64,000 nt of DNA from Thiomonas sp. FB-Cd (GTDB taxonomy: Bacteria > Pseudomonadota > Gammaproteobacteria > Burkholderiales > Burkholderiaceae_C), in contig NZ_JPOE01000005.1 of assembly GCF_000733775.1 (NCBI RefSeq), forward strand, positions 1,488,001 to 1,552,000. The letters run 5' to 3'. The first letter of the stretch is position 1. Each line of letters opens with the position of its first letter. The notes under the pieces are model-generated. The model did not search any database. It was given only the letters and a program-made list of their open reading frames with translations, and was not told the origin of the DNA. Below are positions 46,326-61,946 of this stretch, in pieces. A program made the position numbers and the translations under genes.

Positions 46326-47183
46326 ATGAGTGCACAACCTCTCGAAGCCGGCGCCGCGTTGCCGCAACTCCTGCAGCCACGCCCCTCGGGGACGCGCCGC
46401 TGGAAGGAACGCATGCGTATCCGCGCCACCATTCCCAAAGGCGTTTACGTCCTGCTTTCCGTCTGCGGCTTTTTGCTGCCCCTCATCACATGGCAATTGG
46501 TTGCGTCCAGCGGTTGGGTCGGATCGCTCTTTCTCCCGTCACCCGCGGACGTGGTGCAAAGCTTTGCCGATTGGTTGCGCAGCGGGCTATCGGGCGACAC
46601 GTTCATCAGCATCTACCGCGTGGTCATGGGCTTTTGCATTGCCGCAATCATCGGCGTGCCGCTGGGTCTTTACATCGGAGCCTACAAGTGGTTTGAGGCG
46701 CTGCTGCAGCCCATCAATGACTTCGTGCGTTACATGCCCGCCTCGGCCTTCATTCCGCTTGTGCTGTTATGGGTGGGGATCGGCGAAGGCTCCAAGATTG
46801 CCATCATTTTCATTGGCGTGATTTTTCAAGTCATCGTGATGGTGGCTGACGCCGTGCGGCGCGTTCCGGAAAACTATCTGGAGGTCGCCTACACGATGGG
46901 CGCCACGCAGGGGGAGGTCCTCGGCCTGGTGGTGTGGCGCGGCATTCTGCCCGAGCTGCTGGATATCCTGCGCATCAACATGGGCTGGGCCTGGACATAC
47001 CTGGTCGTGGCCGAGATGGTTGCCGCCAACAGTGGCTTGGGCTTCCAGATTTTGCAAAGCCAGCGCTTTCTCAACACGCCCAAGATCTTTGTAGGCATCT
47101 TTGTCATCGGGCTCATCGGACTGCTGTTCGACCTTGCGTTCCGCTGGGCCTATCGGTTGGCATTTCCCTGGAAACGAGCCTGA
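46326..47183 (+). CDS. NitT/TauT-family ABC transporter permease (guanidine operon)
   Basis: Inner-membrane permease of 285 residues, about six membrane segments, with the SsuC/TauC-type loop NYLEVAYTMGATQGEVLGLVVWRGILPELL. The ATG at 46326 has GGAG 5 bases upstream; an earlier in-frame ATG at 46272 lacks one. It would form the channel for the binding protein upstream and may also serve the orphan binding protein of the facing operon. Confidence 0.88.
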   Translation: MSAQPLEAGAALPQLLQPRPSGTRRWKERMRIRATIPKGVYVLLSVCGFLLPLITWQLVASSGWVGSLFLPSPADVVQSFADWLRSGLSGDTFISIYRVVMGFCIAAIIGVPLGLYIGAYKWFEALLQPINDFVRYMPASAFIPLVLLWVGIGEGSKIAIIFIGVIFQVIVMVADAVRRVPENYLEVAYTMGATQGEVLGLVVWRGILPELLDILRINMGWAWTYLVVAEMVAANSGLGFQILQSQRFLNTPKIFVGIFVIGLIGLLFDLAFRWAYRLAFPWKRA

Positions 47184-47196
47184 GGAGTCTGAAATC

Positions 47197-48051
47197 ATGG
47201 CGCAATCGGAAGTGCAGTTCGATGCGGTCAGCAAAAGCTTTGCGCGCCGCAACGAGCCGCCGCTGCTGGTTCTCGACCGCGTTTCGATGCGGGTCGAGCC
47301 AGGTGAGCTGCTGGTTCTCGTTGGGGCATCGGGCTGTGGCAAGTCCACGCTTCTGCGCATCCTCGCCGGGCTCGAGAGCTACGACACCGGGCGGCTCATC
47401 CTGGATGGTCAGCCTGTTCACGGCCCAGGTGCCGATCGCGCGATGGTGTTCCAGCATTACAGCCTCTATCCCTGGCTGACGGTCAAGGACAACATTCGCT
47501 TTAGCCGTCAACTCAAGGTGGTTCGCGAGAACCTCACCAGCAATGACGTCGAGGTCGCGTCTGGCCGCTCCGATGCCTTGCTCCAGCTCATGGGCTTGGC
47601 GCATGCAGCAGGCTATTACCCCAACCAGCTCTCGGGCGGCATGCAGCAGCGCGTGGCCATTGCCCGCGCGCTCATGAACCGTCCCAAGCTGCTGTTGATG
47701 GACGAACCCTTCGGCGCGCTGGACGCGCAGACCCGGGAAGTGATGCATGACTTGATCCGTCATGTGCACCAGCTTGAGGGAACGACCATCGTTTTCGTCA
47801 CGCACGACGTTGAGGAGGCGCTGTACCTGGGTGACCGCGTTGTGGTGATGGCGCCGCGGCCCGGCCGCATCGACAGCATTGTCAACGTGCCCTTTGGCAG
47901 GCGGCGAGATCAGGACTTGAAGATCACGCCGGAATTCCTGGCCATCAAGCGTCAGATTCTGCAGCGCATTCGAGAGACTTCGGGCATGAAGACCGACCTC
48001 GAGCAACTGGATCAGCTCAGCAAGCACTTGGAACAAGGAGAGCACGCATGA
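47197..48051 (+). CDS. NitT/TauT-family ABC transporter ATP-binding protein (guanidine operon)
   Basis: ATPase of 284 residues with Walker [11 protein letters not shown]-loop [13 protein letters not shown], signature [15 protein letters not shown], Walker [13 protein letters not shown] and switch [21 protein letters not shown] at 47197; the frame is open upstream but only through the permease end. The stop overlaps the first DUF1989 gene (ATGA at 48048-48051). Confidence 0.9.
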
Positions 48052-48785
48052 CGCAGAGCGTCAATCCCGTATGCACCGAAGCCTTCCTTTGGGAGGAGGT
48101 GCTTCCCGGAGGCTGCCACTGGTCGGGCTCGCTGCGGCGCGGAACCGCCCTGCGCATTACCGACACGGGCGGTCGGGCCAACCTTTCAGCGCTGTTGTAC
48201 CGCGCCGACGAGAAGCTTGAGCGGTACAACATGCCTGACACGCTGAAGGCCCAGCACACATCCATGCTCACGCGCGGGCACGCTCTGTATTCCGATATGG
48301 GACGGGTCATGTGCTCGATCACGGCCGATACCTGTGGCTGGCACGACACCATTGGTGGGCTGTCGACCGATGAAGGGATCGAGGCCCGGTACGGGAAGGC
48401 GAGCTACCAGACCCACCGCAACGCGATGTACCGTAGCGCGGAGGATGGTCTTCTTATCGAACTTGGCAAGTATGGTCTGGGCCGCCGTGATCTGGTGCCC
48501 AACGTCAACTTCTTCAGCAAGGTTATGGCCGACCGTGACGGCAGGCTGCACTTCGATCTGGCTCATGGCCGTGCCGGCGCGTGGCTGGACCTGCGCTTCG
48601 ATATGGACGTGCTGGCTGTGCTCTCCGCAGCCCCGCACGCCCTTGATCCTCGACCGGATTACGCCCCGGCCGACATTGTGCTTACGGCATGGCGTTGCGG
48701 ACCCGCAGACGCGACCGATCATTGCCGCAACGCGTGCGCCGAAAACCAGCGGGGCTTTTACCGCACCGAGCTACTTTACCGTTGA
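48048..48785 (+). CDS. cgdA: Carboxyguanidine deiminase subunit (DUF1989, urea-carboxylase-associated protein 1)
   Basis: 245-residue DUF1989 protein. The family's cysteine/histidine signature appears as TADTCGWHDTIGG, with the N-terminal LPGGCHWSGSLRRGTALRITD. In guanidine-degrading clusters two DUF1989 proteins form the heteromeric carboxyguanidine deiminase CgdAB, releasing ammonia from carboxyguanidine to give allophanate; they were earlier called urea-carboxylase-associated proteins. Which of the two here is CgdA is assigned by order only. Translationally coupled to the ATPase gene. Confidence 0.88.
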   Translation: MTQSVNPVCTEAFLWEEVLPGGCHWSGSLRRGTALRITDTGGRANLSALLYRADEKLERYNMPDTLKAQHTSMLTRGHALYSDMGRVMCSITADTCGWHDTIGGLSTDEGIEARYGKASYQTHRNAMYRSAEDGLLIELGKYGLGRRDLVPNVNFFSKVMADRDGRLHFDLAHGRAGAWLDLRFDMDVLAVLSAAPHALDPRPDYAPADIVLTAWRCGPADATDHCRNACAENQRGFYRTELLYR

Positions 48786-48808
48786 ACCTGACTGTGGACT
48801 GAATCGCC

Positions 48809-49456
48809 ATGAGCTCTTTCAATCTCGTCGAAAGCCCCCTCGACCCACAGGCAGCCACGTACGACCACGTCTTGCCAGCTGGCGAGGGTTGGCTGCATCC
48901 AATCAAGGCTGGCCAGACGTTTCGCATCCTGGACTTGGAAGGCAACCAGGCCGTGGACACCCTTTTCTACAACGCGGAAGACTTCACGGAGCGCTACAGC
49001 GCGACCGAGACCATGAGGCACCAGGGTGCCCTTTACCTTACTGCAGGCAGTCGGTTGATGTCCACCCGCGGCCGCGAGATGCTTGCCATTACGGCCGATA
49101 CCTGCGGTCGTCACGACACGTTGGGCGGTGCCTGCGCGGCCGAGAGCAATGCCGTGCGCTACGCGCTGGACAAGCGATCGATGCATTCATGTCGCGAGAC
49201 CTTTCTCAGATGCCTGTACCAGTACGACGGCGGGTTGACCAAGCGCGATCTCACGAGCAATATCAATTTCTTCATGAACGTACCGGTGACCCCAACGGGC
49301 GGGCTTGAATTCGCCGACGGCGTTTCCGCGCCGGGCAAATATGTCGAAATGCGAGCTGCAATGGATGTGCTGTGCCTCATTTCCAACTGTCCGCAGCTGA
49401 ACAATCCGTGCAATGCCTACAACCCGACTCCGGTGCGGCTGCTGATCTGGAATTAG
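48809..49456 (+). CDS. cgdB: Carboxyguanidine deiminase subunit (DUF1989, urea-carboxylase-associated protein 2)
   Basis: 215-residue DUF1989 protein with [20 protein letters not shown], the paired cysteine/histidine motif also present in the preceding gene, and [21 protein letters not shown] at the N-terminus. The two proteins are diverged paralogues that act as one enzyme in known clusters. The ATG at 48809 gives the normal length. Next gene begins 75 bases later. Confidence 0.88.
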
Positions 49457-49531
49457 TCCCATCCACAGCCCACCGGGACGGCCCGGTCCGGGTAACCTCA
49501 TGCACTGCGGGACGACCCGCCGCAGCACGCC

Positions 49532-52500
49532 ATGTTTGACTCTGTCCTGATCGCCAATCGAGGCGTTATCGCCTGCCGCATCATCCGCACACTCAAGCGC
49601 ATGGGGATTCGCGCCATCGCGGTGTATTCCGAAGTCGATCGCGACAGCGCGCACGTGCGCATGGCCGACACTGCAGTGTGCATCGGACCTGCACCGGCCA
49701 GCCAGAGCTATCTCAAGGCCGAGGCGATTCTGGAGGCGGCACGGCAGACCGGTGCAAAGGCCATTCACCCTGGGTATGGATTTCTGTCCGAAAACCCGGA
49801 TTTCGCCGCGGCTTGCGAGGCCTCGGGCATAGCCTTCATTGGCCCGACGCCAGACCAGATGCGCGCCTTTGGCCTGAAGCACACGGCGCGGCAGCTGGCA
49901 CAACAAAACGGCGTGCCGTTGCTCCCCGGGACAGGACTCCTGGACGATGCTGGGCATGCCCTGGCGGAGGCACGGCGCATCGGCTTTCCGGTGATGCTCA
50001 AAAGCACAGCTGGCGGTGGCGGCATCGGCATGCAACTAATCTGGAGTGAAGATCAGTTGCACGAAGCCTATGCCCGCGTTGATCGCCTGGCGCGAGCCAA
50101 CTTCAAGGAGGCGGGCATTTACCTGGAGAAGGTCGTGCAGGCGGCGCGACACATCGAGGTGCAGATCTTTGGCGATGGAGCTGGCCATGTTGTGCACTTG
50201 GGCGAGCGTGACTGCTCGGTGCAGCGGCGCAACCAAAAGGTGATTGAGGAAACACCAGCGCCCAACCTGCCGGCGCGCGTTCGCCGGTCCCTGTGCGAAA
50301 CCGCAGTGCGCCTGGCGCAAAGCGTCCGCTATCGCAACGCCGGTACAGTGGAATTTGTGCTGGATGCCGAAACAGGCGCGTTCTATTTTCTCGAGGTCAA
50401 CACCCGGCTTCAGGTCGAACACGGCGTCACCGAGGAGGTTGCCGGTGTGGATCTGGTGGAGTGGATGGTTCGCCAGGCCGCGGGCGAGTCACCGGGTGTG
50501 GGCTACGACCATGTGCCCCGCGGCCATAGCATTCAAGCCCGTGTCTATGCGGAAGATCCAGCCAAAAACTTCCAGCCAGCGACCGGCTTGCTCTCCGAGG
50601 TTGTTTTCCCCGACACGGCACGGGTGGAGACTTGGGTTGAACCCGGGAGCGACGTCAGCGCGTTCTACGACCCCATGCTGGCTAAAGTCATCGTGCATGG
50701 TGCCGACCGTGCTGAGGCGCTGTCGCGTCTACGCGAAGCGCTATCGGCAACGCGCCTGTATGGATTCGAGACGAATTTGGGATACCTGCGGCAGATCGCG
50801 GCGGATGCGACGTTCGCGCAGGGCCAACAGACCACACGCTACCTCAACGGGCTCGCGTACTCGGCGCGTACCGCGGATGTGTTGGAGCCTGGCGTGCAAA
50901 CCACTCTGCAGGATTGGCCAGGCCGCTTGGGCTACTGGGACGTGGGCGTGCCACCGTCTGGCCCGATGGATGCACTGGCCCACCGCGCGGCAAACCGGCT
51001 TCTGAATAACGCCGCCGACGCGGCGACCCTGGAGATCACGTTCGCCGGGCCTACGTTGCGCTTCAACACCGATACGGTGATCGCCCTCACCGGGGCTGAG
51101 ATGGGGGCGCGACTGGACGGTGAGCCATTGAAGGGGTGGCGTAGCCACGCCGTGCGGGCCGGACAGATTCTTGCGCTTGGCAGTGTGGGCGGTGGCGGTT
51201 GCCGGGCCTATTTGGCGGTCGCCGGTGGGTTCGAGGCGCCAATCTACCTCGGTAGCCGGTCGACATTCACGCTGGGCAAGTTTGGCGGCCATGCGGGGCG
51301 CACCTTGCGCGCAAGTGACGTGCTTCATGTGGGGCTGAACCCGCAGGCGCGCTCGGGCATCGAGGTGCCACAGTTCGCGCAGCCGACCTATCCCGCGTCC
51401 TGGGAGATTGCTGTGCGCTATGGCCCGCATGGCGCCCCGGACTTTCTGACTGACGCCGACGTGGCCATGCTGTTCGCCACGGACTGGGAGGTGCATTACA
51501 ACTCCAACCGCACCGGAGTGCGGCTCATCGGGCCCAGGCCCCAGTGGGCGCGAGCCGACGGCGGTGAGGCTGGGCTGCACCCATCGAACATTCACGACAA
51601 CGCCTATGCCATCGGCAGCATTGACTTCACGGGGGACATGCCGATCTTGCTGGGACCCGACGGGCCGAGTTTGGGGGGCTTCGTCTGCCCGGGAGTGATC
51701 GTGACAGCCGACCTGTGGAAAATGGGGCAGCTGCGCCCGGGCAATACGGTGCGTTTCGTACCGGTGGGCCTGGACGAAGCGCTCCGGCTCGAGACTGCGC
51801 AAGACGCCGCGCTGGAAGATCTGAATGCGCCTCTGGATCCGCCGCTGGCGGCGGCGTCCGCGCTCGAATCCCCCGTCGTTGCATCTGCCGCCAGCTCCGA
51901 GCGCGCCGTGGGCGTCGTTTACCGCGTGGCAGGCGACAAAAACCTTCTGGTTGAATACGGGCCACTTGTGCTCGATCTTGAGCAGCGCTTTCGTGTGCAT
52001 GCCCTGATGCAGTGGCTTGAGGCGTCCGGCTTGCCGGGCATTGTCGATCTGACGCCAGGAATTCGCTCACTGCAGATTCACTATGACAACCGCAGACTTC
52101 CGCTGCATGCGCTGCTCGACGCGCTCAAGCGAGCCGAGGGCGAGTTGCCACCCGTGGAGACGATGGAACTGCCGACGCGTATCGTGCATCTGCCTCTGAG
52201 CTGGGACGATCCTGCCACCCGTCTTGCGATCGAGAAGTACATGGCCGGCGTGCGCAAGGATGCACCGTGGTGTCCAAGCAATATCGAGTTCATTCGGCGC
52301 ATCAACGGGCTCGATTCCATCGACGATGTCCTGCGTATCGTCTTTGAGGCAAGCTATCTCGTGCTCGGCTTAGGTGACGTGTACCTTGGCGCGCCCGTGG
52401 CCACGCCGCTGGATCCGCGCCACCGACTGGTCACCACCAAGTACAACCCGGCGCGGACCTGGACCCCGGAGAATGCGGTCGGCATCGGTGGTGCCTACAT

Positions 52501-53131
52501 GTGCGTGTATGGCATGGAAGGCCCGGGTGGCTACCAGTTCGTCGGTCGCACCCTTCAGATGTGGAACCGCTGGCGGCAGACGAATGTGTTTACCGATGGC
52601 AAGCCCTGGCTGCTGCAGTTCTTTGACCAGATCCGCTTTTTCCCGGTGAGTACCCAGGAGCTGGAAACCATCCGCGCGGACTTTCTGCATGGGCGCTATC
52701 AGGTTGACATACGTGAGGATACGTTCCGTCTCGCCGATTATCGGCGCTTCCTCGCCGACCACGCTGCAGGCATTGACGCGTTTCAGACGCGGCAGCGCAA
52801 GGCTTTTGCCGAGGAGCGTGAGCGCTGGGCGCAAGCCGGCGAGACCGACTGGGCCAGCGATGCAAGCATCGCTGAGGCGTCGACTGATAGTGAGATCGAT
52901 CTGCCACAAGGCAGCCGCCGGGTTGCCAGTCACGTTGCCGGCAGTGTGTGGAAAGTCTTGGTTGAGCCCGCCCAGACCGTGAATGCAGGCGACGTCCTGT
53001 GCATCCTCGAGTCGATGAAGATGGAGATCAGTGTGGCAGCCCCAGTCGACGGTGTCGTGGAGCGGCTGCTGTGCCGGGAAGGTGGCGAGGTGAGTGCTGG
53101 ACAGAATTTGGTGGTATTGACGGAGACCTGA
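49532..53131 (+). CDS. Guanidine carboxylase (biotin-dependent, urea carboxylase family)
   Basis: 1199-residue multidomain enzyme. Residues about 1-450 are the biotin carboxylase ATP-grasp (LIANRGVIACRIIRTLKRMG, STAGGGGIGMQL, FFLEVNTRLQVEHGVTEEVAGVDLVEWMVR). The central part holds the two KipA/KipI-like halves of the carboxyltransferase (VGVPPSGPMDALAHRAANRLLNN; LLVEYGPLVLDLEQRFRVHAL; LGLGDVYLGAPVATPLDPRHR). The C-terminal carrier domain has the biotinyl lysine K1163 in ESMKMEI. Urea and guanidine carboxylases share this architecture; the guanidine reading rests on the riboswitch and the DUF1989 pair. The stop abuts the hydrolase ATG. Confidence 0.92.
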   Translation: MFDSVLIANRGVIACRIIRTLKRMGIRAIAVYSEVDRDSAHVRMADTAVCIGPAPASQSYLKAEAILEAARQTGAKAIHPGYGFLSENPDFAAACEASGIAFIGPTPDQMRAFGLKHTARQLAQQNGVPLLPGTGLLDDAGHALAEARRIGFPVMLKSTAGGGGIGMQLIWSEDQLHEAYARVDRLARANFKEAGIYLEKVVQAARHIEVQIFGDGAGHVVHLGERDCSVQRRNQKVIEETPAPNLPARVRRSLCETAVRLAQSVRYRNAGTVEFVLDAETGAFYFLEVNTRLQVEHGVTEEVAGVDLVEWMVRQAAGESPGVGYDHVPRGHSIQARVYAEDPAKNFQPATGLLSEVVFPDTARVETWVEPGSDVSAFYDPMLAKVIVHGADRAEALSRLREALSATRLYGFETNLGYLRQIAADATFAQGQQTTRYLNGLAYSARTADVLEPGVQTTLQDWPGRLGYWDVGVPPSGPMDALAHRAANRLLNNAADAATLEITFAGPTLRFNTDTVIALTGAEMGARLDGEPLKGWRSHAVRAGQILALGSVGGGGCRAYLAVAGGFEAPIYLGSRSTFTLGKFGGHAGRTLRASDVLHVGLNPQARSGIEVPQFAQPTYPASWEIAVRYGPHGAPDFLTDADVAMLFATDWEVHYNSNRTGVRLIGPRPQWARADGGEAGLHPSNIHDNAYAIGSIDFTGDMPILLGPDGPSLGGFVCPGVIVTADLWKMGQLRPGNTVRFVPVGLDEALRLETAQDAALEDLNAPLDPPLAAASALESPVVASAASSERAVGVVYRVAGDKNLLVEYGPLVLDLEQRFRVHALMQWLEASGLPGIVDLTPGIRSLQIHYDNRRLPLHALLDALKRAEGELPPVETMELPTRIVHLPLSWDDPATRLAIEKYMAGVRKDAPWCPSNIEFIRRINGLDSIDDVLRIVFEASYLVLGLGDVYLGAPVATPLDPRHRLVTTKYNPARTWTPENAVGIGGAYMCVYGMEGPGGYQFVGRTLQMWNRWRQTNVFTDGKPWLLQFFDQIRFFPVSTQELETIRADFLHGRYQVDIREDTFRLADYRRFLADHAAGIDAFQTRQRKAFAEERERWAQAGETDWASDASIAEASTDSEIDLPQGSRRVASHVAGSVWKVLVEPAQTVNAGDVLCILESMKMEISVAAPVDGVVERLLCREGGEVSAGQNLVVLTET

Positions 53132-54940
53132 ATGCCCACGAGCCTGACGTTTTCTGCGCTGCTCAGCGCGTATCGAACCCATGCCCTGACCCCCACGGCG
53201 CTCGTGGAGGAGTTGTTGGCCCGCAATGCACGCTATCCCGACCACGCCATCTGGATCACGCCGCCGGAGCGAGGGCGTCTGCTTGCGCGCGCTCGCGAGC
53301 TGGAGGCGCGTGGCATGGACGGTTTGCCGCTGTACGGCATTCCCTTCGCGATCAAGGACAACATCGACGTGGCTGATGTGCCAACCACCTGTGCCTGCCC
53401 GTCCTTCGCCTACACGCCGCGGCAGTCCGCCACAGTTGTGCAGAGGCTTCTCGACGCTGGGGCCATTCCAGTTGGCAAGACAAACCTCGACCAGTTCGCC
53501 ACCGGGCTAAATGGCACACGCTCACCCTATGGCGCGTGCCGAAACGCCTTCAACCCCGATTACATCTCCGGCGGATCGAGCGCGGGATCGGCGGTGTCTG
53601 TAGCGTTGGGTTTGGCGAGTTTCTCGCTGGGTACCGACACCGCGGGCTCGGGGCGCGTGCCGGCGGCGTTCAACAATCTCGTCGGGCTCAAGCCGACCTG
53701 CGGCTTGTTGTCCACGCACGGTGTGGTGCCCGCTTGTCGTTCGCTGGATGTGGTTTCGATCTTCGCGCTCTGCGCGGAAGACGCGCAGCAGGTGTTTGGC
53801 GTGGCGTTGAGTGAGGATCCGGCCGATCCCTATTCCCGTGCCGCGCAACCGCATGGATTCGACTTCGGTCACGCGCCGCGTTTTCGATTTGGCGTGCCGG
53901 CGCGCAAGGACCTGGAGTTCTTCGGCGATGCCGAGTCCGCGGCTTTGTTTGACGACGCCGTGGCGCGTCTGCGGGATCTGGGCGGCGAGGAAGTGGATCT
54001 CGATTTTGCGCCGTTCATCGACACCGCGCGCCTGCTCTATGGCGGGCCCTGGGTCGCCGAGCGCTACCAGGCCATCCGCGCGTTCATTGACGCCCAACCC
54101 GAAGCCTTGTTTCCAGTGACGCGCGACATTACCCTGGGCGGCGCCAAGCCGTTGGCCGCCGACGCTTTTGCCGCGCAGTACCGGCTGCGCGACCTCAAGC
54201 GTGTGTGCGACCGCGTCTGGAAGGACGTGGATTGCGTGATTACGCCAACCGCAGGCACCATCTACACACGAGCCGAGATGCTGGCCGAGCCCATCGCGCG
54301 CAATACCGACCTCGGCCTGTACACCAACTTCATGAACCTGCTTGACTACGCGGCCATTGCCGTGCCCGCCGGTTTCCGCGGCGATGGCCTGCCGTTCGGC
54401 GCGACACTGTTCGCTCCGGCGCACCAAGACGTGCCGCTGCTGCACTTGGCGGCGCGTTGGCAACGGACCATTGAGCGGCCCTGCGGCGCTGTTGAAACCA
54501 CGCCTTCAGCGCAGTCCCCGGCAGTGCCGTCGCCCGTGCCCAGCGGCCAGATGCGCGTCGCGGTGGTGGGTGCCCATCTCAGCGGCTTGCCGCTGAACGG
54601 GCAGCTCACATCGCGCGGTGGGCGCTTGGTGGTGGAAACACGCACCGCGCCGGGGTACCGGTTTTATGCCTTGCCCGACGGCAAGCGCCCGGGTCTGATT
54701 CGCGTCGCCAGCGGCGGCGCATCCATCGCCTGCGAAGTGTGGGAGCTTCCCGCCAGCACCTTTGGCAGCTTCGTGGCTGGCATTCCCGCGCCGCTAGGTA
54801 TCGGCAGCGTCATGCTGGAAGATGGCAGCGCCGTCGCCGGCTTCATCTGCGAAGGCATTGGCATCGAAGGCGCACGGGACATTACAGCCTTTGGGGGCTG
54901 GCGCGCCTATCTCGCCGCAGCAGCCGCAACCGCGGCCTGA
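53132..54940 (+). CDS. atzF: Allophanate hydrolase
   Basis: Splits allophanate to two ammonia and two CO2, ending guanidine (or urea) carboxylation. 602 residues. The amidase-signature domain carries the K75 - S149 - S173 triad (GIPFAIKDNID, GGSSAGSAVSVALG, DTAGSGRVPAAFNN). The C-terminal about 130 residues form the extra domain of the full-length AtzF/DUR1,2 type (VVGAHLSGLPLNGQL, EVWELPASTFGSFVAGIPAPLGIGSV). The ATG is directly adjacent to the carboxylase stop. Last gene of the rightward operon; a 193-base gap separates it from the facing operon. Confidence 0.94.
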   Translation: MPTSLTFSALLSAYRTHALTPTALVEELLARNARYPDHAIWITPPERGRLLARARELEARGMDGLPLYGIPFAIKDNIDVADVPTTCACPSFAYTPRQSATVVQRLLDAGAIPVGKTNLDQFATGLNGTRSPYGACRNAFNPDYISGGSSAGSAVSVALGLASFSLGTDTAGSGRVPAAFNNLVGLKPTCGLLSTHGVVPACRSLDVVSIFALCAEDAQQVFGVALSEDPADPYSRAAQPHGFDFGHAPRFRFGVPARKDLEFFGDAESAALFDDAVARLRDLGGEEVDLDFAPFIDTARLLYGGPWVAERYQAIRAFIDAQPEALFPVTRDITLGGAKPLAADAFAAQYRLRDLKRVCDRVWKDVDCVITPTAGTIYTRAEMLAEPIARNTDLGLYTNFMNLLDYAAIAVPAGFRGDGLPFGATLFAPAHQDVPLLHLAARWQRTIERPCGAVETTPSAQSPAVPSPVPSGQMRVAVVGAHLSGLPLNGQLTSRGGRLVVETRTAPGYRFYALPDGKRPGLIRVASGGASIACEVWELPASTFGSFVAGIPAPLGIGSVMLEDGSAVAGFICEGIGIEGARDITAFGGWRAYLAAAAATAA

Positions 54941-55133: not shown

Positions 55134-55829
55134 TCAGCTCGACGTTTTGAATTGTGGGACAGAGAGTCTCATTCGCTTTCCTTCCAGCCAGGGCAGGGTG
55201 GAGTGGAGAACCTGTCCTTGTCCACCCGCCATGTTGCCGAACGAGATTTCGAAATCGGCCAACTGGCGTAGTTCGTCGTCGCACGCCGAGCTGTCCTGGA
55301 CATGCTGCCACGCGGCGTGTTCCGCGTCCGGGTGCATCGTCCTTGCGCGGACCCGCATGAAGCACGGCCCCGAAAACAGACATAGTGTGGGTGCGTGAGC
55401 GTCGGACGTCAAAGCCACGCCCTGTATACCGCCGTTGTGGGGCTCGCGTTCCCATCGCTCCGCATAGTCGGATTCGATTCCGTATTCGTCGATGGCATCG
55501 AAGCCTGGCGCGAAGGCCATGCGCCCGAGATCGCGCCGGCCGGTGGGGCGGTAGTCCAACTGGCGCAGCCATTCGCAGGTGTTGCCCTGCACATGGGTGA
55601 TGCCGGCAAAGCCTTCCTGGCGTAGCAGGCCGAAGAGTTCGTCGCGGCTGCACTCGTGCAGGGACGTGCGTCCTTGGCACGCCGGTCGGTCAGCAGGAAT
55701 GCGCAGATCGGCGTGCCACTGCGCGGTCTGCATCCACAACACGAGCGTGGTGGGGTCGCGCACCCCCGGTGCAGTCAGCAGAGTGCGCCGCCACAGGCCC
55801 AGGTAATGCGGAGGGACGGTGTCAGCCAT
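55134..55829 (-). CDS. Unrecognised protein, last gene of the leftward guanidine operon
   Basis: 231 residues, no signal peptide or membrane segment. Visible features: PPHYLGLWRRTLLTAPG and LVLWMQTAQWHADLRIP near the N-terminus, CEWLRQLDYRPTGRRDLGRM and EYGIESDYAERWERE in the middle, and HSTLPWLEGKRMRLS at the end. The alternating Trp/Tyr-rich strands suggest a lipocalin-like or HRI1-like beta barrel, which is only an impression. The ATG at 55829 overlaps the upstream lactonase-like stop, so it is co-translated with that gene; a longer frame upstream runs antisense to nothing and was cut. Function unknown. Confidence 0.8.
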   Translation of the reverse strand: MADTVPPHYLGLWRRTLLTAPGVRDPTTLVLWMQTAQWHADLRIPADRPACQGRTSLHECSRDELFGLLRQEGFAGITHVQGNTCEWLRQLDYRPTGRRDLGRMAFAPGFDAIDEYGIESDYAERWEREPHNGGIQGVALTSDAHAPTLCLFSGPCFMRVRARTMHPDAEHAAWQHVQDSSACDDELRQLADFEISFGNMAGGQGQVLHSTLPWLEGKRMRLSVPQFKTSS

Positions 55830-56611
55830 CAGTCGTGGAATTCGGGGAAGTGGCGCAGGTTTTTCCAGAACGCCAAATCGTGGTTGGGCCACAGCATGGC
55901 GCGCTCGCGCGCGGCCATGGACTTGAGCTTGCGGATGCTGGCGACCGCCTGGTCTTCGCGGTCCTGCCAGCAGATGCCCGGGGCGACTTCGTCGCGCAGA
56001 TTTTCCTCCAAGTCGGCGGCATCGCCGCAGAGGATCACGGGAGCGCCGCGTGGCAGTTCGACCCACAACGACATGTGGCCCGCGGTGTGTCCGGGGCTGG
56101 AGATCGCGCGCACGCCGGGAAGCAGGTCGTATTCGCCGCGCATTAGGGTCCAGCGGTGATCGCCGGCGAAATCGTCGGCGAAATAGGCAGGGTCCAGGCC
56201 GCTGCGCGCGGCATCCATTTCGTCATGCTGGACATGCACTTCGGCACCGCACACGTCACACAGCCCCCCGGCGTGATCGAAATGCAGGTGGCCGAGAAAG
56301 ACCAGGTCAATATCGGCCGGCCCCAGGCCGAGGCGCGCCAGGTGGCTCGGCAGGCGCTGATTTTCCTGCATGTCCGGCGCGCCGAATGCGAAGGTTTGTG
56401 GATCGTAGTGGCGCGCGCGTTGCGCCGGGTCAGCGATCTTGCCGTAGTCACAGCCGACGTCGTAGAGGATGCGTCCTTGCGTCGTCTCAATGAGGTAGGC
56501 CAGGATAGGAGCTTCGATGATCTCGCCGTGGCCACGGTGGCGGGTGGAGATGGACTTGTCATAGCGGTGCGTGGCCGTGAGCAGCGGCCACATGCGCAGA
56601 ACCTGGGTCAT
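55829..56611 (-). CDS. AiiA-like metallo-beta-lactamase-fold hydrolase
   Basis: 260 residues with the zinc motif HLHFDH (H108, H110, D112, H113), SSPGHTAGHMSLWVELP and a second-metal Asp in CGDAADLEENL. In sequence style it resembles N-acyl-homoserine lactonases. Its place in a guanidine-riboswitch operon, coupled by overlapping codons to a cysteine hydrolase on one side (56608-56611) and the unknown gene on the other, makes a quorum-quenching role less likely than hydrolysis of a lactone, cyclic ureide or similar pathway intermediate. That is inference. Confidence 0.85.
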   Translation of the reverse strand: MTQVLRMWPLLTATHRYDKSISTRHRGHGEIIEAPILAYLIETTQGRILYDVGCDYGKIADPAQRARHYDPQTFAFGAPDMQENQRLPSHLARLGLGPADIDLVFLGHLHFDHAGGLCDVCGAEVHVQHDEMDAARSGLDPAYFADDFAGDHRWTLMRGEYDLLPGVRAISSPGHTAGHMSLWVELPRGAPVILCGDAADLEENLRDEVAPGICWQDREDQAVASIRKLKSMAARERAMLWPNHDLAFWKNLRHFPEFHD

Positions 56612-57279
56612 GAGGTCTCCTGAGGAAGGGTGTCGATGGCATTGGCGAGGTCTGTGCTGTCACGCACGCAGCCGAAGATGCCGCCTTCGACTGCCACCAT
56701 CTCCAGCGCAGCTCGGTGCAAGGCGGGGTAGGCCGAGGCGCAGGCGTCGCCGGCCAGGCGGCAGCGGTAGCCGAAGTCCGTTGCGGCGCGCAGGGTGGAG
56801 TGAACGCAAACCTCAGTGGTCACGCCACACAGGATGAGTTCGCCAATGCCCTGCCCGGCAAGGATCCGCTGCAAGTCGGTCTGGTGGAAGGCGCTGTAGC
56901 CGGATTTGTCCACCACGGGCTCGTCGGAAACGGGCGTGAGTTCGTCGATGATGTCGTGGCCGCGCTCGCCGCGTACCAGCAGGCGTCCCAATGGGCCGGG
57001 AGCGCCGATCGGGGCGCCCGCGCGCGCGGCGCGTTCGAGCTTGGCCGTCGGGCAGTCCGAAAGATCGGTGCGGTGGCCCTCGCGGGTGTGGATGACGAGC
57101 ATCCCCTGGCGCCGAGCGGCGTGCAGCAGGCGCCGCGCGCCGGGGATGGCCGCGCGCAGTAGTGACGTGTCCAGCCCGGCGCGGGCAGCGTAGCCGCGCG
57201 GGTCGAGGAAGTCGCGCTGCATGTCGATGATCAGCAGCGCGGTGTCGCGTCCGATCTGCGCGGGCTTGAGGTCGGTCAT
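56608..57279 (-). CDS. Isochorismatase-fold cysteine hydrolase (amidase)
   Basis: 223 residues with the full catalytic triad of the cysteine-hydrolase group: D19 (LLIIDMQRDF), K125 (VVDKSGYSAF) and C158 (CGVTTEVCVHSTLRAA). This group contains biuret hydrolase, N-carbamoylsarcosine amidase, ureidoacrylate amidase and guanylurea hydrolase; the GVTTEVCVHSTLR elbow is of the amidase rather than isochorismatase type. In a guanidine-riboswitch operon, a substrate carrying a carbamoyl or guanyl-urea group fits best. It overlaps the lactonase-like gene and lies two bases after creatininase. Confidence 0.88.
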   Translation of the reverse strand: MTDLKPAQIGRDTALLIIDMQRDFLDPRGYAARAGLDTSLLRAAIPGARRLLHAARRQGMLVIHTREGHRTDLSDCPTAKLERAARAGAPIGAPGPLGRLLVRGERGHDIIDELTPVSDEPVVDKSGYSAFHQTDLQRILAGQGIGELILCGVTTEVCVHSTLRAATDFGYRCRLAGDACASAYPALHRAALEMVAVEGGIFGCVRDSTDLANAIDTLPQETS

Positions 57280-57280
57280 C

Positions 57281-58048
57281 TCAGGCTTCGAACTCGCCGC
57301 GTATGGCGGCGACGAGGCGCGCGGTCAATTCCTGCGCCATGGCCGCGCCCTTGGACGCGTCGGCACCTCGGGCGGACGACAGCACGCCCGACGACGGCAC
57401 CCATTGCGGGCGCGGGGGGTAGGTATCGTAGGGCGGAAACTGTACCGGCTCGTCGGCCGGCAGCAGGTCCATGCGCACCAGATCGGGGTGGTAATGCAGC
57501 ATCAGCGAGGTTTCGATGACCGCGGCATGCTCCAGCGCAAATCCGGGGAAGCCGTCCGGGAACACGCGCGCCAGGGTCGGCTCGGTTAGGAAGTCCCAGT
57601 ACTCAAGGCGCATGACGCGCAACGGGCAGGTCGGACCGAGCTCGCGTAGCGCGAGGTCGATGCCCTCGGTGACAAACCACTGGTTCTCGTAATGCCCGAC
57701 CACCACCACAAGCTTGCGCACGCCGTGGCGGGCCAGTTCGCGGATGACGTCGCGGGTGATCTGGATCAGGCTGGAGGCATCCAGGCTGGTGGTGCCACAG
57801 AAGTGCTGGCCGCCGCCGCATTTGGGTTGGGACTTGTAGCCATAGCTCAGCGCGGGCGCGACGATGCCGTCGATGCGTGCCGCGACGCTGGCGGAGACCG
57901 CGGTTGCCAGCAGCGCGTCGGTGCCCAGCGGCAGATGCGGGCCGTGTTGCTCGAGCGCGCCGCAGGGCAGAAACACCACCGGGCTGTCCTCGGCGATGCG
58001 GTCGCGATAGGCGACCCAGCTCATTCGGTCCATCATCACGGGGTTCAT
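57281..58048 (-). CDS. Creatininase (creatinine amidohydrolase) homologue
   Basis: 255 residues, colinear with Pseudomonas creatininase. The metal ligands are all visible: E33, H35 and D44 in GALEQHGPHLPLGTD, and H119 and E121 in VVGHYENQW; H174 (ALEHAA) matches the catalytic His and W151 (EYWDF) one lid tryptophan. The second lid tryptophan, which I recall as GWDIEHGG in Pseudomonas, is Phe here (GFALEHAA). The substrate loop YGYKSQPKCGGGQHFCGTTSLD is closely conserved. Creatinine is a cyclic N-methylguanidine derivative, which fits riboswitch control. ATG at 58048 follows AGGGA by about 8 bases. Confidence 0.88.
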   Translation of the reverse strand: MNPVMMDRMSWVAYRDRIAEDSPVVFLPCGALEQHGPHLPLGTDALLATAVSASVAARIDGIVAPALSYGYKSQPKCGGGQHFCGTTSLDASSLIQITRDVIRELARHGVRKLVVVVGHYENQWFVTEGIDLALRELGPTCPLRVMRLEYWDFLTEPTLARVFPDGFPGFALEHAAVIETSLMLHYHPDLVRMDLLPADEPVQFPPYDTYPPRPQWVPSSGVLSSARGADASKGAAMAQELTARLVAAIRGEFEA

Positions 58049-58086
58049 GGCATGTCCCTTTCTCGGTCGTGTTGCGTTGTAGAGGC

Positions 58087-58839
58087 TCAGACCATGAGCG
58101 CGCCGCCATTGGGGCTGAGGGTCTGGCCGCAGTAGTAACTGGCGTGCGAAGAGGCGAGGAATACCGCCGTGGCAGCGACTTCCTCGGGCCGACCGACGCG
58201 ACCCATCGGCACGTCGGCTTCCTTCGCCGCCCAAGTGGCGCTCATGTGGTCGAGCGCCAACATGGGGGTGTCCACCGGGCCTGGCGCAATGGCGTTGACA
58301 CGCACGTGCGGCGCGAACTCACGTGCCAGCGAGCGGGTCAGCGTGATGACTCCGGCCTTGGCGGCCGTGTACGCGGCGAACCCGGCGCGGCCGAGATAGC
58401 CGAGTTCCGACGCGACGTTGATGATGCAGCCATTGCCGCGGCTGAGCATGGCGGGAAGGGCAGCCTGGCAGCACAGGAACACGGACTTGAGGTCGGTCGC
58501 GAGGACGTGGTCCCATTCCGATTCGCGCATGTCCAGAAACGGCCTTTCCAGCAGGATGCCGGCGTTGTTGACCAGGATGTCGATTCCGCCGTGGCGTTGC
58601 AGGCACGCATCCATCATGCGGCGCACGGCATCGCCGTGGGATACGTCGGCCTCCACCGCCCAGGCCGTGCCACCCGCGGCCTCGATCAGCGCCACGGTTT
58701 CTTCCGCCAATTGCGCGCGACCGAGGTGGTTGACGACGACCGCCGCGCCAGCACCTGCCATGGCCAATGCGATGGCGCGCCCGATACCGGTGGCCGCGCC
58801 TGTGACGAGCGAGGTTTTACCGTTGAGGTTGAGATGCAT
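58087..58839 (-). CDS. SDR-family dehydrogenase (guanidine operon)
   Basis: 250 residues, FabG-like, with TGAATGIGRAIALAMAG, NNAG, the catalytic YTAAK with preceding Ser (NVASELGYLGRAGFAAY), and VNAIAPGPVDTP. The ATG at 58839 is used; an in-frame start at 58905 lies inside the next gene upstream. Oxidation of an alcohol or hemiaminal intermediate is suggested by the neighbouring desaturase-like hydroxylase, but the substrate is unknown. It lies 14 bases below the second SDR. Confidence 0.88.
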   Translation of the reverse strand: MHLNLNGKTSLVTGAATGIGRAIALAMAGAGAAVVVNHLGRAQLAEETVALIEAAGGTAWAVEADVSHGDAVRRMMDACLQRHGGIDILVNNAGILLERPFLDMRESEWDHVLATDLKSVFLCCQAALPAMLSRGNGCIINVASELGYLGRAGFAAYTAAKAGVITLTRSLAREFAPHVRVNAIAPGPVDTPMLALDHMSATWAAKEADVPMGRVGRPEEVAATAVFLASSHASYYCGQTLSPNGGALMV

Positions 58840-58853
58840 GGTGGGGCTCGCGA

Positions 58854-59639
58854 TCAATGCAGCAGCTCGCCGTTGTCCACCACGATGCTTTGACCCGTGA
58901 TGCACTTGGCCAGCGGCGACGCAAGGAAGACGAAGGTGCCGGCGATGTCGTCAGGACCCATGAGTTCGGGAATGGCCTGGACCGCAAGAATTTCGTCCAG
59001 CAGCACGGAAGGCTCGACCCCCCTGCGACTGGCCATCGCCTCCAGCGAACGCATGGCCGCATCGGTGCGAACCCAGCCTGGGCACACGGCGTTGACGCGG
59101 ATGCCACGTGGTGCAAGTTCCGCGGCCAGGGAACGTGTGAGGCCGAGCACCGCGTGCTTGCTCGCGACGTAGGCGGAAAAATAAGGCACACCGGTGCGGC
59201 CCCAGATGGAAGACTGGTTGATGATGGTCGCGCCAGGCTCCAGCAGCGGCAGCATGGCGCGGATGAGCTGGTACATGCTGGCAACGTTGTTGTGCAGCAA
59301 GGCGGCCCAGCGCGCGTCGGCCTGCGGATCGGCGTCGTCCAGCGGCGTGGCGTATTCCATGCCGGCGTTGTTGACCAAGACGTGAAGCCTGACACCGCCA
59401 CGCTGCAGTTCATCGCCAAGGGCAGTCGCGGCAGCGCCATCGGCCAGGTCCGCGGCGTGCAGGGTCACCGTGCACCGCGCGCCGAGTTGCGCGGCGGCGG
59501 CGGCAAGCCCGGGGCCTGAGCGGTCGACGAGCGCCAGCGCCGCACCACGCTCAGCGAACCCGCGGGCGATGGCCAGCCCGATGCCACTGCCTGCGCCAGT
59601 GACCATCACCGTCTTGCCGGAGAAGTCGACATCCCGCAC
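58854..59639 (-). CDS. SDR-family dehydrogenase, second copy (guanidine operon)
   Basis: 261 residues from a GTG at 59639. TGAGSGIGLAIARGFAERG, LVNNAGMEY, the triad QSSIWGRTGVPYFSAYVASK and VNAVCPGWVRT show an intact SDR active site. It differs clearly from the neighbouring SDR, so it is not a recent duplicate; the two may catalyse successive oxidations (alcohol then aldehyde/hemiaminal). It starts six bases after the desaturase stop. Confidence 0.87.
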   Translation of the reverse strand: MRDVDFSGKTVMVTGAGSGIGLAIARGFAERGAALALVDRSGPGLAAAAAQLGARCTVTLHAADLADGAAATALGDELQRGGVRLHVLVNNAGMEYATPLDDADPQADARWAALLHNNVASMYQLIRAMLPLLEPGATIINQSSIWGRTGVPYFSAYVASKHAVLGLTRSLAAELAPRGIRVNAVCPGWVRTDAAMRSLEAMASRRGVEPSVLLDEILAVQAIPELMGPDDIAGTFVFLASPLAKCITGQSIVVDNGELLH

Positions 59640-59645
59640 GATGTC

Positions 59646-60656
59646 TCAGACCGCCGTAAGGAAGGAAACGCCGACGGCGCCATAGAAATCCTCGGCCTTG
59701 CCCGCGCCGGCTGTGACCACGCCGTAGTCATCGCTAAGCACGCGCTTGACGCGGTGACGGTGGAAGCCGCGCAGCAGGCTTGCCATGGGCAGCACCTGTA
59801 CGTCCTCGCCAGCATACAGTTCGCGGTGCAGCGCCGGGAGTCGGTACCAGGGCGCCGTGGGCTTCTCGTGGTGGGCGTTGTGATAACTGAAGTTGAGCAG
59901 CAGAAGGTTGAGCCAGGGGTGCCCCAGCGAGACGAGGTTGGAATAGGTGTTGTGCTGCTCATAGGCGTGATCGCGCACCTTGTCGTTGGGAATGCTGCCG
60001 CCGGTGAGTACGGCGAAAGCGTCGTAGGTGTGCTGGTAGGCGTCAGCGAAGCGCAGCACGGTGACAAACAGCCCGTAGGCAACGAAATACAGGAGCACGG
60101 CCTTGGGCGAGATCCAAGCCAGCGCGGCGAAGAACGTCAGGCGCACGGCGAGCACGAACAGGATGCGCTTGCGACCCACAGAACGCTCGGGAGCGAGGAA
60201 GGGCAGCAGCATGACGTAAGCGCGCATGATGAACTCGACTGCCGGGATGTAGGCCCATTCCAGAGCCACCACCAGCGCGCGTACCCAAGCGGGTGCGGTG
60301 CGCAGGAAGCGCTTGTAGTCGAAGGTGATGACGTCAGCGCGGTCGATGTGGTGGCGCATGTGCTTGCGGCGCAGATCCGAGAAGGGCGCGTAGCAGCTTC
60401 CGTTGATCCAGCTCATCGCCGTGCCGCCGCGCTGGTTCGCGGCATTGGTCTTGAAGATGGTGCCGTGGGCGAATTCGTGCAGGAAATAGGCCGAGTAGAC
60501 CAGCGAATGGGCAAGCAGAAGCACGCCCATTGCGTTGAGCCAACCGCTGGCCGCGACTAGAAGCGCCAGGCTCGCGATATAGCTCAGAGCCGTATAGCCC
60601 AGGGCAAGAGCATTGGGCGTGGCGCTGTCGTCGTAGCGAAAGATGGTGCTTGCCAT
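59646..60656 (-). CDS. Membrane diiron fatty-acid-desaturase-family oxygenase
   Basis: 336 residues with several membrane spans and three histidine boxes: HEFAHG, HMRHH and HNAHH, plus HTYD and EQHNTYSN that may add metal ligands. This is the pattern of membrane desaturases and hydroxylases, which use O2 and an electron-transfer chain; no ferredoxin or reductase is in the operon. The ATG at 60656 follows GGAGA by 6 bases. In an operon controlled by a guanidine riboswitch, hydroxylation of an alkyl group next to a guanidine nitrogen is more plausible than lipid desaturation, but this is inference. Confidence 0.85.
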   Translation of the reverse strand: MASTIFRYDDSATPNALALGYTALSYIASLALLVAASGWLNAMGVLLLAHSLVYSAYFLHEFAHGTIFKTNAANQRGGTAMSWINGSCYAPFSDLRRKHMRHHIDRADVITFDYKRFLRTAPAWVRALVVALEWAYIPAVEFIMRAYVMLLPFLAPERSVGRKRILFVLAVRLTFFAALAWISPKAVLLYFVAYGLFVTVLRFADAYQHTYDAFAVLTGGSIPNDKVRDHAYEQHNTYSNLVSLGHPWLNLLLLNFSYHNAHHEKPTAPWYRLPALHRELYAGEDVQVLPMASLLRGFHRHRVKRVLSDDYGVVTAGAGKAEDFYGAVGVSFLTAV

Positions 60657-60726
60657 CGTGGGTCTCCGGGTGTTCGGCTTGCAGGTGCCGCCCCACATGC
60701 ATGGCGCGGCGGCATCCGCTTTGTGC

Positions 60727-61734
60727 TTATTTGGCGAGTTGCATCACGAATTTCCCGTCGAAAGTCTCGGCGATCGGGGGAACGTCGGTGATCTGCTTCT
60801 TGCCGATCAACACCTTGCCGATCACCGGGCCGCTGCCGTAGAGCGAGGTGGTTGCCGTGGACTTGGTGAAGGTCTTGACCATACCGGCCAACGGGATGTT
60901 GAACACGCCGGACATCTGATCCTTCACATCCTTGGCGGATATCCCCATGGCCTTGCCGATGATTGCGTCGGCATCGTCAGGATGGGACTTCATATAGGCC
61001 AGACCGTCCAGATAGGCTTGGATGGTGGCCTTGACTTCCTTCGGATGGGTGGCGATGTAGCCCTTGTTGAAGACGAGCACGTCGGTAATAAGCCCCGGGG
61101 CATCCTTGGACGAGAACACGACGTGGAATTTCTTGCCGCCTTCCATCGCCACGATTTGCGACAGGCTAGGCTCATAGGTCACGCCGATGGGAATGCCGCC
61201 CGAGGCCATGGCGGCGGGTACCTGTTCGGGGGTCATGCTGACGGACTGCACATCTTTCTCTGCCATGCCGTTCTTCAGCAGCGCATAGGACAGCAGGAAG
61301 TCCGAGGGTGACAGCGGGTTGTAGCCAATCTTCTGGCCCTTGAACTGGGTGATTTTGGTGATGTCGGTTCTCGCGACGATGGCGTCGGCACCGTTGGAAT
61401 AGTCAATCGGCATGACCACCTGGAGATGCAGCCCCTTAGAGTCCGATCCGATGACCTGATCGTAGGTGAGCATGCCACCGTCGACGGCATTGCTGGCAAT
61501 GGCCGAAGGAATCAGCGCAGGATCGTTGAAGTTCTGCAGCTTGGCATCGAGGCCGTGCTTCTTGAAAAGGCCTTTCGCATCGGCAACGTAGAAGGGGCCG
61601 TAGCCAATCCAAACGACGGTTCCGATGTTCATGGGCTCATCGGCTTGAGCAACTTGCACGCCCGATAGAGCAACGGAAGTGAAAGCGGCAAGGCTTGCGA
61701 GGGTGCGCAAGGCGACTCTGCGGGCGAACGACAT
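60727..61734 (-). CDS. NitT/TauT-family substrate-binding protein, orphan (guanidine operon)
   Basis: 335 residues with a signal peptide (MSFARRVALRTLASLAAFTSVALSGVQVAQA) and the same general fold as the rightward operon's binding protein: IGTVVWIGYGPFYVADAKGLFKKHGLDAKL. It is the first gene after the second riboswitch, yet no permease or ATPase follows, so it probably docks on the transporter at 46326-48051 or one elsewhere. The two binding proteins are diverged, suggesting different ligands. ATG at 61734; the frame continues upstream through the riboswitch, which is not coding. Confidence 0.88.
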   Translation of the reverse strand: MSFARRVALRTLASLAAFTSVALSGVQVAQADEPMNIGTVVWIGYGPFYVADAKGLFKKHGLDAKLQNFNDPALIPSAIASNAVDGGMLTYDQVIGSDSKGLHLQVVMPIDYSNGADAIVARTDITKITQFKGQKIGYNPLSPSDFLLSYALLKNGMAEKDVQSVSMTPEQVPAAMASGGIPIGVTYEPSLSQIVAMEGGKKFHVVFSSKDAPGLITDVLVFNKGYIATHPKEVKATIQAYLDGLAYMKSHPDDADAIIGKAMGISAKDVKDQMSGVFNIPLAGMVKTFTKSTATTSLYGSGPVIGKVLIGKKQITDVPPIAETFDGKFVMQLAK

Positions 61735-61795
61735 GGTTGAGGCTCCGAGGTTGAGGGTTGAAAACGGGCACGGAAGAAAGCGGTGACGACGCTTT

Positions 61796-61892
61796 TCTCC
61801 CGGGCTTTTATCCCTCCGTGGAGCCTCGAAAGGAGGCCGGGCTGCTCTCGGACCAGGCGCTTCACGAAGAAGCCGGAACCCTAGCTGCCCTG
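61796..61892 (-). ncRNA. Guanidine-I (ykkC subtype 1) riboswitch, second copy
   Basis: Read on the minus strand the conserved pieces are CTAGGGTTCCGG (61884 to 61873), CTGGTCCGAGAG, CCACGGA and GGGATAAAAGCCCGGGAGA (61814 to 61796). The last block is identical to the first riboswitch except its final base. The start codon of the binding-protein gene is 61 bases downstream, almost the same spacing as in the first copy. Confidence 0.93.
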
Positions 61893-61946
61893 TCAAACGC
61901 AAAACAACAATTGGCGATCAACCACCAATTCCGTGCCTTCGACTTC

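Follow-up and report, generated by a model that had tools for sequence, protein, structure and literature searches.

We analyzed a 64,000-nucleotide stretch of the Thiomonas sp. FB-Cd genome (contig NZ_JPOE01000005.1, positions 1,488,001 to 1,552,000; hereafter the window). Eight co-directional genes on its minus strand, running from 61734 to 55134 downstream of a Guanidine-I riboswitch (61895-61795), probably form a guanidine-induced pathway of oxidative N-dealkylation, by which the nitrogen of substituted guanidines would become usable. In this order, the genes encode a periplasmic binding protein (SBP), a membrane diiron oxygenase of the fatty-acid-desaturase fold (DES), two short-chain dehydrogenases (SDR1 and SDR2), a creatininase-family amidohydrolase (CRN), an isochorismatase-like cysteine amidohydrolase (ICH), a metallo-beta-lactamase-fold hydrolase (MBL) and an MgdL-like protein. 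All eight genes stand at the positions and in the order given by a first-pass annotation, which a model had made from the letters alone, and the families that it named were confirmed by Pfam and NCBIfam. That annotation had proposed a guanidine-controlled route from substituted guanidines to guanidine, a proposal now well supported by the MgdL identity of the last gene, the kinship of ICH to a guanylurea hydrolase and the co-occurrence of the operon with guanidine riboswitches.

The last gene, previously left as an unknown protein, matched no Pfam model (E up to 0.01) and no NCBIfam model (E up to 1e-5). Judged by alignment, it encodes an MgdL-type lyase, a predicted N-(hydroxyalkyl)guanidine lyase. 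MgdL, an N-(hydroxymethyl)guanidine lyase, was reported in 2025 by Sinn and colleagues (PMC12508155). According to that paper, MgdL is modelled with a beta-barrel, its residues D49 and R51 are required to split N-(hydroxymethyl)guanidine, its partner in methylguanidine demethylation is the 2-oxoglutarate (2OG) dioxygenase MgdH, and mgdH and mgdL sit between gca and atzF. At locus L112 (genome G463), gca is followed by a dioxygenase gene (domains DIOX_N and 2OG-FeII_Oxy) and then by a lyase gene, the three genes overlapping or adjoining at their ends. There, atzF lies further down, past five genes, among them those of an ABC importer of peptide type and of a GntR regulator (both named from sequence, not by family search), and the order is that of the published mgdH/mgdL cluster with five genes inserted before atzF. 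We used the L112 protein as a stand-in for the published MgdL sequence. The window lyase is 32% identical to it (E 9e-28), and D41 and R43 of the window lyase align to its D49 and R51, which are the published catalytic numbers. The order gca, dioxygenase, lyase recurs at L110, where gca is followed by a gap of about 0.9 kb and the fetched stretch has no atzF match.

A protein search (E 1e-3) returned 125 relatives of the lyase and a profile search (E 1e-8) returned 303; some relatives come from a mine drainage metagenome, and a few carry a precomputed PF16815 (HRI1) tag. Residues W32, Q34, D41, R43, E115, E124 and W126 are invariant in a 22-member alignment. All of them are kept in 71 of 71 BLAST relatives except E115, which is kept in 70. 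The predicted structure of the lyase is beta-rich (pLDDT 92.8), and yeast YLR301w (3rby, E 1.3e-5, TM 0.55) is the PDB entry that it matches best, consistent with the HRI1 tag. An attempt to read the function from the fold was given up, as the 3rby/HRI1 match assigns none.

DES passes the tests for membrane desaturase-fold diiron enzymes, namely the PF00487 score and the histidine boxes. The boxes HEFAH, HMRHH and HNAHH, together with H209, are invariant in a 22-member alignment, and the boxes are also invariant among 17 aligned members, a set that overlaps the 22. To survey the partners of the lyase family, we used two partly overlapping genome samples (369 and 398 genomes) and looked for neighbours with tblastn over 8- to 18-kb stretches. 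The lyase family was present in 7 genomes of the 369-genome sample of the class. At 18 MgdL-family loci outside the window the partner was an MgdH-like dioxygenase in 11 and DES in 5; two loci had neither (L107, L109) and none had both. At L132-L135 the lyase was detected with the profile and not with tblastn, and its neighbours were placed by coordinates. Binding-protein matches lie between lyase and dioxygenase at L126, and the two genes are convergent at L127. Among 80 DES loci, described below, an MgdH-like match was found in one (L025). A lyase tree of 72 rows (the window and 71 BLAST-detected relatives, without L131-L135) covers 6 of the 11 dioxygenase-type rows. In this tree the dioxygenase-linked L110 and L112 nest among the DES-linked lyases (support 96/92), and the DES label changes three times, twice on account of well-supported branches; long branches leave the deeper order unsure. 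On these data, two unrelated oxygenases seem to serve a single lyase family. Because DES and MgdH alternate beside it, and because of the placement in the tree, the lyase family appears to have swapped its oxygenase partner.

A scan with the DES alignment, using one genome per species, gave 511 related stretches, of which the best 80 were counted. They belong chiefly to Pseudomonas, Stutzerimonas (15 loci) and Burkholderiales, and include four Paraburkholderia loci and two P. viridiflava records. The first-pass annotation had held that homologous operons consistently lacking guanidine genes or riboswitches would speak against its pathway; we found Guanidine-I (Rfam RF00442) in 79 of the 80 genomes with a DES locus, the exception being Tepidiphilus (L068), and in 1 of 14 control genomes. 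Among 100 relatives, including the window's genome, Guanidine-I was present in 14: in 7 of 7 with a strong DES match (E 1.6e-96 or better) and in 7 of the 93 others (Fisher p 2e-7, relatedness not corrected). Four genomes with a weak DES match (G010, G064, G069, G080), none with Guanidine-I, were counted as having no DES.

Genes were counted at 54 of the 80 loci, the other 26 being set aside with a contig end too near. A gene was scored as present when a tblastn match (1e-8) started at most 1.6 kb upstream or 8.5 kb downstream of DES; a missing gene may have diverged or moved, and the SDR counts may include unrelated SDRs. SBP was present in all 54 loci, the MgdL-like gene in 51, CRN in 50, SDR2 in 48, ICH in 46, SDR1 in 45, an EamA gene in 44 and MBL in 41. 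The Guanidine-I core motif, a short string, lay upstream of DES in 50 of the 54, plus L019 by Rfam, which was applied to whole genomes and nine loci. A minimal operon of SBP, DES, MBL and lyase was found in Acidithiobacillus (L017, L019) and Burkholderia (L082). Because many species share the gene order and the riboswitch, the association of the operon is far beyond chance.

The EamA-type permease gene, not part of the window's operon, lies between SDR2 and the creatininase gene in L039 (12526-13410) and many relatives; EamA genes are also found beside the lyase in L107, L108 and L125. In L020, L022, L027, L036 and L046 a further copy of DES, with about 50% identity to the window's, lies within or beside the operon; the last four of these loci also have a second binding-protein match. 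A tie of DES to rhizobial and cyanobacterial plasmid desaturases was considered and dropped: the 7 records are 25-38% identical, and the annotation around the two inspected shows no guanidine genes.

In the pathway that we propose, SBP would deliver an N-substituted guanidine and DES would hydroxylate the carbon bonded to the guanidine nitrogen. By homology, the MgdL-like lyase would split the hemiaminal into guanidine and an aldehyde. On a second route, SDR1 or SDR2 may oxidise the hemiaminal to a linear or cyclic acylguanidine, which ICH and CRN would hydrolyse to guanidine and an acid; MBL may belong to this hydrolytic branch or to aldehyde handling. Guanidine would then bind the riboswitches and be broken down by the enzymes of the neighbouring operon, namely the carboxylase, the carboxyguanidine hydrolase and AtzF. 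The methylguanidine hemiaminal is described as unusually stable in PMC12508155. DES and the lyase would be the core, a counterpart of MgdH and MgdL, and the dehydrogenases and amidohydrolases would widen the range to larger substrates. Homologues of SDR1, SDR2, CRN and ICH are absent from 8 of the 11 MgdH-type loci, and the other three loci have one each, 31 to 33% identical. Since methylguanidine needs just an oxygenase and a lyase, the extra enzymes of the DES operon point to larger substrates, of which creatinine or creatine is the most attractive. Urea, named earlier as another likely product, was not borne out, as no operon gene falls in a family recognised as urea-forming. A metformin-type pathway was rejected as well, with no ureohydrolase family match among the eight genes.

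ICH is 60% identical over 201 aa to a cysteine hydrolase of plasmid pMET-2, an identity that does not fix substrate specificity. The gene of the pMET-2 enzyme adjoins a deaminase gene and importer genes. A plasmid guanylurea hydrolase, BB_00025, is reported to have a kcat of 4.4 per s on guanylurea and very low activity on biuret, and its gene is next to a deaminase gene (PMC9800807). Because of this shared deaminase-gene context, we take the pMET-2 enzyme to be BB_00025. Identity to the pMET-2 hydrolase ranges from 53 to 67% among the 61 ICH-like open reading frames (ORFs) in the fetched loci, and the catalytic Cys of ICH is present in all 61 matches aligned there (62 matches in all). ICH was not accepted as the biuret hydrolase BiuH (NF050097, 238.8 vs 370), though biuret hydrolases are its best PDB matches. 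In a plasmid collection, 863 records, 91 of them from Escherichia, have ICH relatives, many of the listed ones at 54% identity.

CRN exceeds the cut-off of the curated creatininase equivalog model and keeps the metal-site motifs of PDB 1j2t, which we take to be Pseudomonas putida creatininase with W154, W174 and D175 as substrate-pocket residues. W154 is kept in 66 of 68 relatives, a set that includes two distant matches, L107 and L125. At W174 the relatives have F (59), Y (7), A (1) or a gap (1), and at D175 they have A (66), E (1) or a gap (1); the window CRN has F and A. Because W174 and D175 are replaced, CRN may accept a ring that is larger or otherwise different. Since guanylurea and creatinine share the N-acylguanidine structure, ICH and CRN may act by cutting acylguanidines formed by SDR oxidation of the hemiaminal. 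Creatininase-family genes are also present in L125 and L107. In both loci (L107 13606-15760, L125 4626-6795) the gene is followed by a glutamine-synthetase-like gene, near MgdL-type and guanidine importer genes.

MBL keeps its metal-site motifs. Because MBL-fold genes are also found in the MgdH-type loci L125 and L126, MBL may serve a step common to the DES and MgdH systems. The earlier description of MBL as lactonase-like is not supported as a function, and a role in quorum quenching was rejected: the NF045699 score is 135.9 vs 375, and all 52 relatives (52/52) have Asp at the position of the AiiA tyrosine. The catalytic tyrosine of the AiiA lactonase is, we assume, Y194.

The first-pass annotation had described the operon as tightly coupled by overlapping codons. 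This holds for two of the seven junctions (ICH/MBL, 4 nt; MBL/MgdL-like gene, 1 nt) but not for the other five, which have gaps of 1, 6, 14, 38 and 70 nt. We make no claim of a terminator in the riboswitch leader, as the fold has a z of -1.2 and 24 of 200 shuffles fold equally well. The DES operon ends 193 bases from the end of a convergent guanidine carboxylase operon on the plus strand (Table 1). SBP has no permease or ATPase of its own inside the DES operon, and in many Pseudomonas relatives permease and ATPase genes are found downstream of the last gene. The importer at 45270..48051 is possibly shared with this orphan SBP; its permease and ATPase are closest to sulfonate, taurine and nitrate types, below the cut-offs of those models. 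Because of the riboswitches, we infer that the substrate of the carboxylase is guanidine, not urea.

Table 1. Features of the DES operon and of the neighbouring guanidine carboxylase operon (positions in the window).
Feature	Position	Strand	Evidence
Guanidine-I aptamer of DES operon	61795..61895	-	Rfam RF00442, 86.9 bits vs cut-off 63
SBP, periplasmic binding protein, NMT1/SsuA type	60727..61734	-	PF09084, 101 bits
DES, membrane diiron oxygenase, fatty-acid-desaturase fold	59646..60656	-	PF00487, 118 bits, cut-off 29.7
SDR1, short-chain dehydrogenase, GTG start	58854..59639	-	PF13561, 182 bits
SDR2, short-chain dehydrogenase	58087..58839	-	PF13561, 215 bits
CRN, creatininase-family amidohydrolase	57281..58048	-	PF02633, 200 bits; NCBIfam TIGR04448, 355.7 vs 235
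ICH, isochorismatase-like cysteine amidohydrolase	56608..57279	-	PF00857, 155 bits
MBL, metallo-beta-lactamase-fold hydrolase	55829..56611	-	PF00753, 62 bits
MgdL-like gene, 231 aa	55134..55829	-	Alignment to MgdL family
Guanidine-I riboswitch, guanidine carboxylase operon	45107..45213	+	RF00442, 86.6 bits
Guanidine-type ABC importer (binding protein, permease, ATPase)	45270..48051	+	TIGR01728, 187.5 bits, above cut-off
Carboxyguanidine hydrolase subunits (annotated UAAP1, UAAP2)	48048..49456	+	TIGR03425, 342.5 bits; TIGR03424, 333 bits; above cut-offs
Guanidine-II riboswitch upstream of gca	49470..49520	+	RF01068, 36.3 bits vs cut-off 32
Guanidine carboxylase (annotated urea carboxylase)	49532..53131	+	TIGR02712, 1870 bits
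Allophanate hydrolase AtzF	53132..54940	+	TIGR02713, 800 bits

Elsewhere in the window, a urease alpha subunit is encoded at 22871-24610, and a match to the Rfam 5' ureB sRNA (24160-24449, plus strand, 125.6 bits) lies on the strand opposite this gene. The window's genome (G000, 4.39 Mb) has a third Guanidine-I riboswitch on contig 2 (872849-872949; L136 6850-6950, minus strand), and over 250 aligned bases its leader shares 89% identity with the leader of the DES operon. An oxalate/formate antiporter gene (TIGR04259, 411 vs 335) is located downstream of this third riboswitch, and about 0.7 kb beyond lies a gene for a GGT-family hydrolase with 5hft, labelled gamma-glutamyltranspeptidase, as its best PDB match. 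We take 5hft to be the oxamate amidohydrolase HpxW. This third riboswitch unit, seen in one genome, would suit an oxalate-like or formate product.

The full operon could instead be a pathway for creatinine or creatine in which CRN opens creatinine or an oxidised form of it, a reading that we consider possible, though unlikely. DES, the SDRs, ICH and the lyase would cleave the N-CH2 bond to give methylguanidine and a two-carbon acid, and demethylation would follow. DES would hydroxylate the ring or the glycine carbon, the SDRs would oxidise it, and CRN and ICH would open and cut the acylguanidine into these two products. DES and the lyase would then demethylate methylguanidine to guanidine, which would act back on the operon's own riboswitch. 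CRN fits this reading in passing the curated creatininase model with its metal-site motifs, and Stutzerimonas accounts for 15 of the 80 listed loci. Pseudomonas stutzeri is reported to turn creatinine into methylguanidine and acetic acid in PMC11764249, a figure legend of which lists one uncharacterised step, taken here as that conversion, and a less characterised route via creatol and methylguanidine is mentioned in PMC10215027. It is doubtful, if conceivable, that an aerobic creatinine route encoded by the operon is the missing genetic basis of the P. stutzeri conversion. The third riboswitch unit suits a C2 or C1 acid product; however, it was seen in one genome only, and the co-product in the P. 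stutzeri report is acetic acid instead of glyoxylate or oxalate. The creatinine pathway is also opposed by the CRN relatives, which have F or Y at W174 in 66 of 68 and A at D175 in 66 of 68 (1j2t numbering), and by the minimal operons L017, L019 and L082, which have no CRN, SDRs or ICH.

It is improbable that the substrate is a longer or more lipophilic alkylguanidine of plant or synthetic origin (galegine-like compounds, dodecylguanidine), of which DES would cut the alpha carbon while the SDRs and hydrolases finish the chain end. DES is a membrane enzyme of desaturase fold, the operon has dehydrogenases and hydrolases beyond the needs of methylguanidine, as the MgdH-type loci indicate, and some carriers are plant-associated (the four Paraburkholderia and two P. 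viridiflava records). However, the operon also occurs in Thiomonas and Acidithiobacillus, which are mine-water genera, its periplasmic binding protein of ABC type points to a ligand that is small and polar, and it contains no acyl-CoA enzymes. Guanylurea or another N-acylguanidine, with ICH as the main enzyme and DES in a side function, is a very improbable substrate: the identity of ICH to the pMET-2 guanylurea hydrolase (up to 67% in ICH-like ORFs) would suit it, but the hydrolysis needs no oxygenase, SDR or lyase, and ICH is missing from 8 of 54 loci vs 3 of 54 for the lyase. We give hardly any credence to a DES that remodels membrane lipids under guanidine stress, with the linked enzymes as unrelated passengers. 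The family name and fold of DES would agree with such a role, but not the gene order, which recurs in many species and includes an MgdL-like lyase, a binding protein and amidohydrolases, nor the alternation of DES and MgdH beside the same lyase family.

Several observations weigh against N-dealkylation as the function of the operon. It leaves the role of MBL unexplained, and no electron-transfer partner is encoded among the eight genes. No characterised relative of DES was found; DES has no PDB sequence match better than E 0.49, and its model (22 sequences, pLDDT 73) has no PDB fold match at E <=0.001; the top matches, 8xks_K and 8xqw_M from chloroplast FtsHi motor complexes, have E values of 0.02 and 0.08 and TM scores of 0.57 and 0.56. 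Membrane desaturase-fold enzymes often work on lipophilic chains, unlike methylguanidine, and the closest plasmid relative of DES (38% identical) adjoins ectoine synthase and halogenase genes. DES, ICH and MBL are found without lyase or riboswitch in the locus at L065, L074, L076 and L083 and also, with the riboswitch judged by the motif, at L098. L040 has the riboswitch motif and no lyase, ICH or MBL, and L017 and L068 have the lyase and no riboswitch within the locus. At L025 (6849-8568), carboxyguanidine-hydrolase-like and MgdH-like genes end just before the riboswitch of the DES operon, so that both oxygenase types are adjacent, a counter-example to strict exclusion.

Where guanidine comes from in nature is a major gap in the field according to PMC12186494, and the operon is a widespread, riboswitch-controlled candidate that bears on it. 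DES would be an oxygenase type not reported for guanidine compounds in PMC12508155, PMC12186494 and PMC11410670; the word 'desaturase' is absent from the first of these papers and refers to NapI in the other two. The data also suggest that the MgdL lyase function extends to a set of unannotated proteins, and they make the report on creatinine and methylguanidine in P. stutzeri directly testable. Practical interest lies in clearing creatinine, methylguanidine and other guanidine pollutants from wastewater. We found no published description of the operon in the open literature, where an earlier mention as riboswitch neighbours is possible; full-text searches gave nothing joining a guanidine riboswitch with creatininase and desaturase, or alkylguanidine degradation with a guanidine riboswitch. 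In its accessible part, PMC2211319 names only transporters behind this riboswitch class.

Several known systems resemble parts of the operon. Like the pMET-2 guanylurea hydrolase, ICH is an isochorismatase-fold cysteine hydrolase, and guanidine is the product of the plasmid enzyme; the pMET-2 gene, unlike that of ICH, has no linked oxygenase, SDR, creatininase or lyase and adjoins a deaminase and an ABC importer. CRN is of the same family as Pseudomonas putida creatininase, above the curated cut-off and with metal-site motifs and W154 kept. Unlike in the creatininase-creatinase pathway, W174 and D175 are replaced and there is no creatinase among the eight genes, the part of the genome that was searched for it. 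MocD of rhizopine catabolism is reportedly a protein of the desaturase fold for which demethylation of a small polar compound has been proposed; its likeness to DES, by description only, lies in the fold and the proposed demethylation, and the substrate differs. Homoarginine-6-hydroxylases, the ethylene-forming enzyme and NapI, as proposed for DES, hydroxylate the carbon beside a guanidine nitrogen, with release of guanidine, but, unlike DES, they are 2OG dioxygenases; for the plant homoarginine-6-hydroxylases the hemiaminal is said to decay spontaneously (PMC12508155). The closest parallel in lyase and setting is MgdH/MgdL of Vreelandella boliviensis (PMC12508155), with which the DES operon shares an MgdL-family lyase with both catalytic residues, Guanidine-I control (Guanidine-II at gca) and an adjacent guanidine carboxylase pathway. 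Unlike MgdH/MgdL, it forms a separate operon, has the unrelated membrane diiron DES in place of the 2OG dioxygenase, and adds two SDRs, a creatininase, a cysteine amidohydrolase and MBL. Taken together, the logic of hydroxylation followed by a lyase is already known from MgdH/MgdL; what is new is an unrelated membrane oxygenase in the predicted role of MgdH, an oxidative and hydrolytic extension, and the wide spread of the operon.

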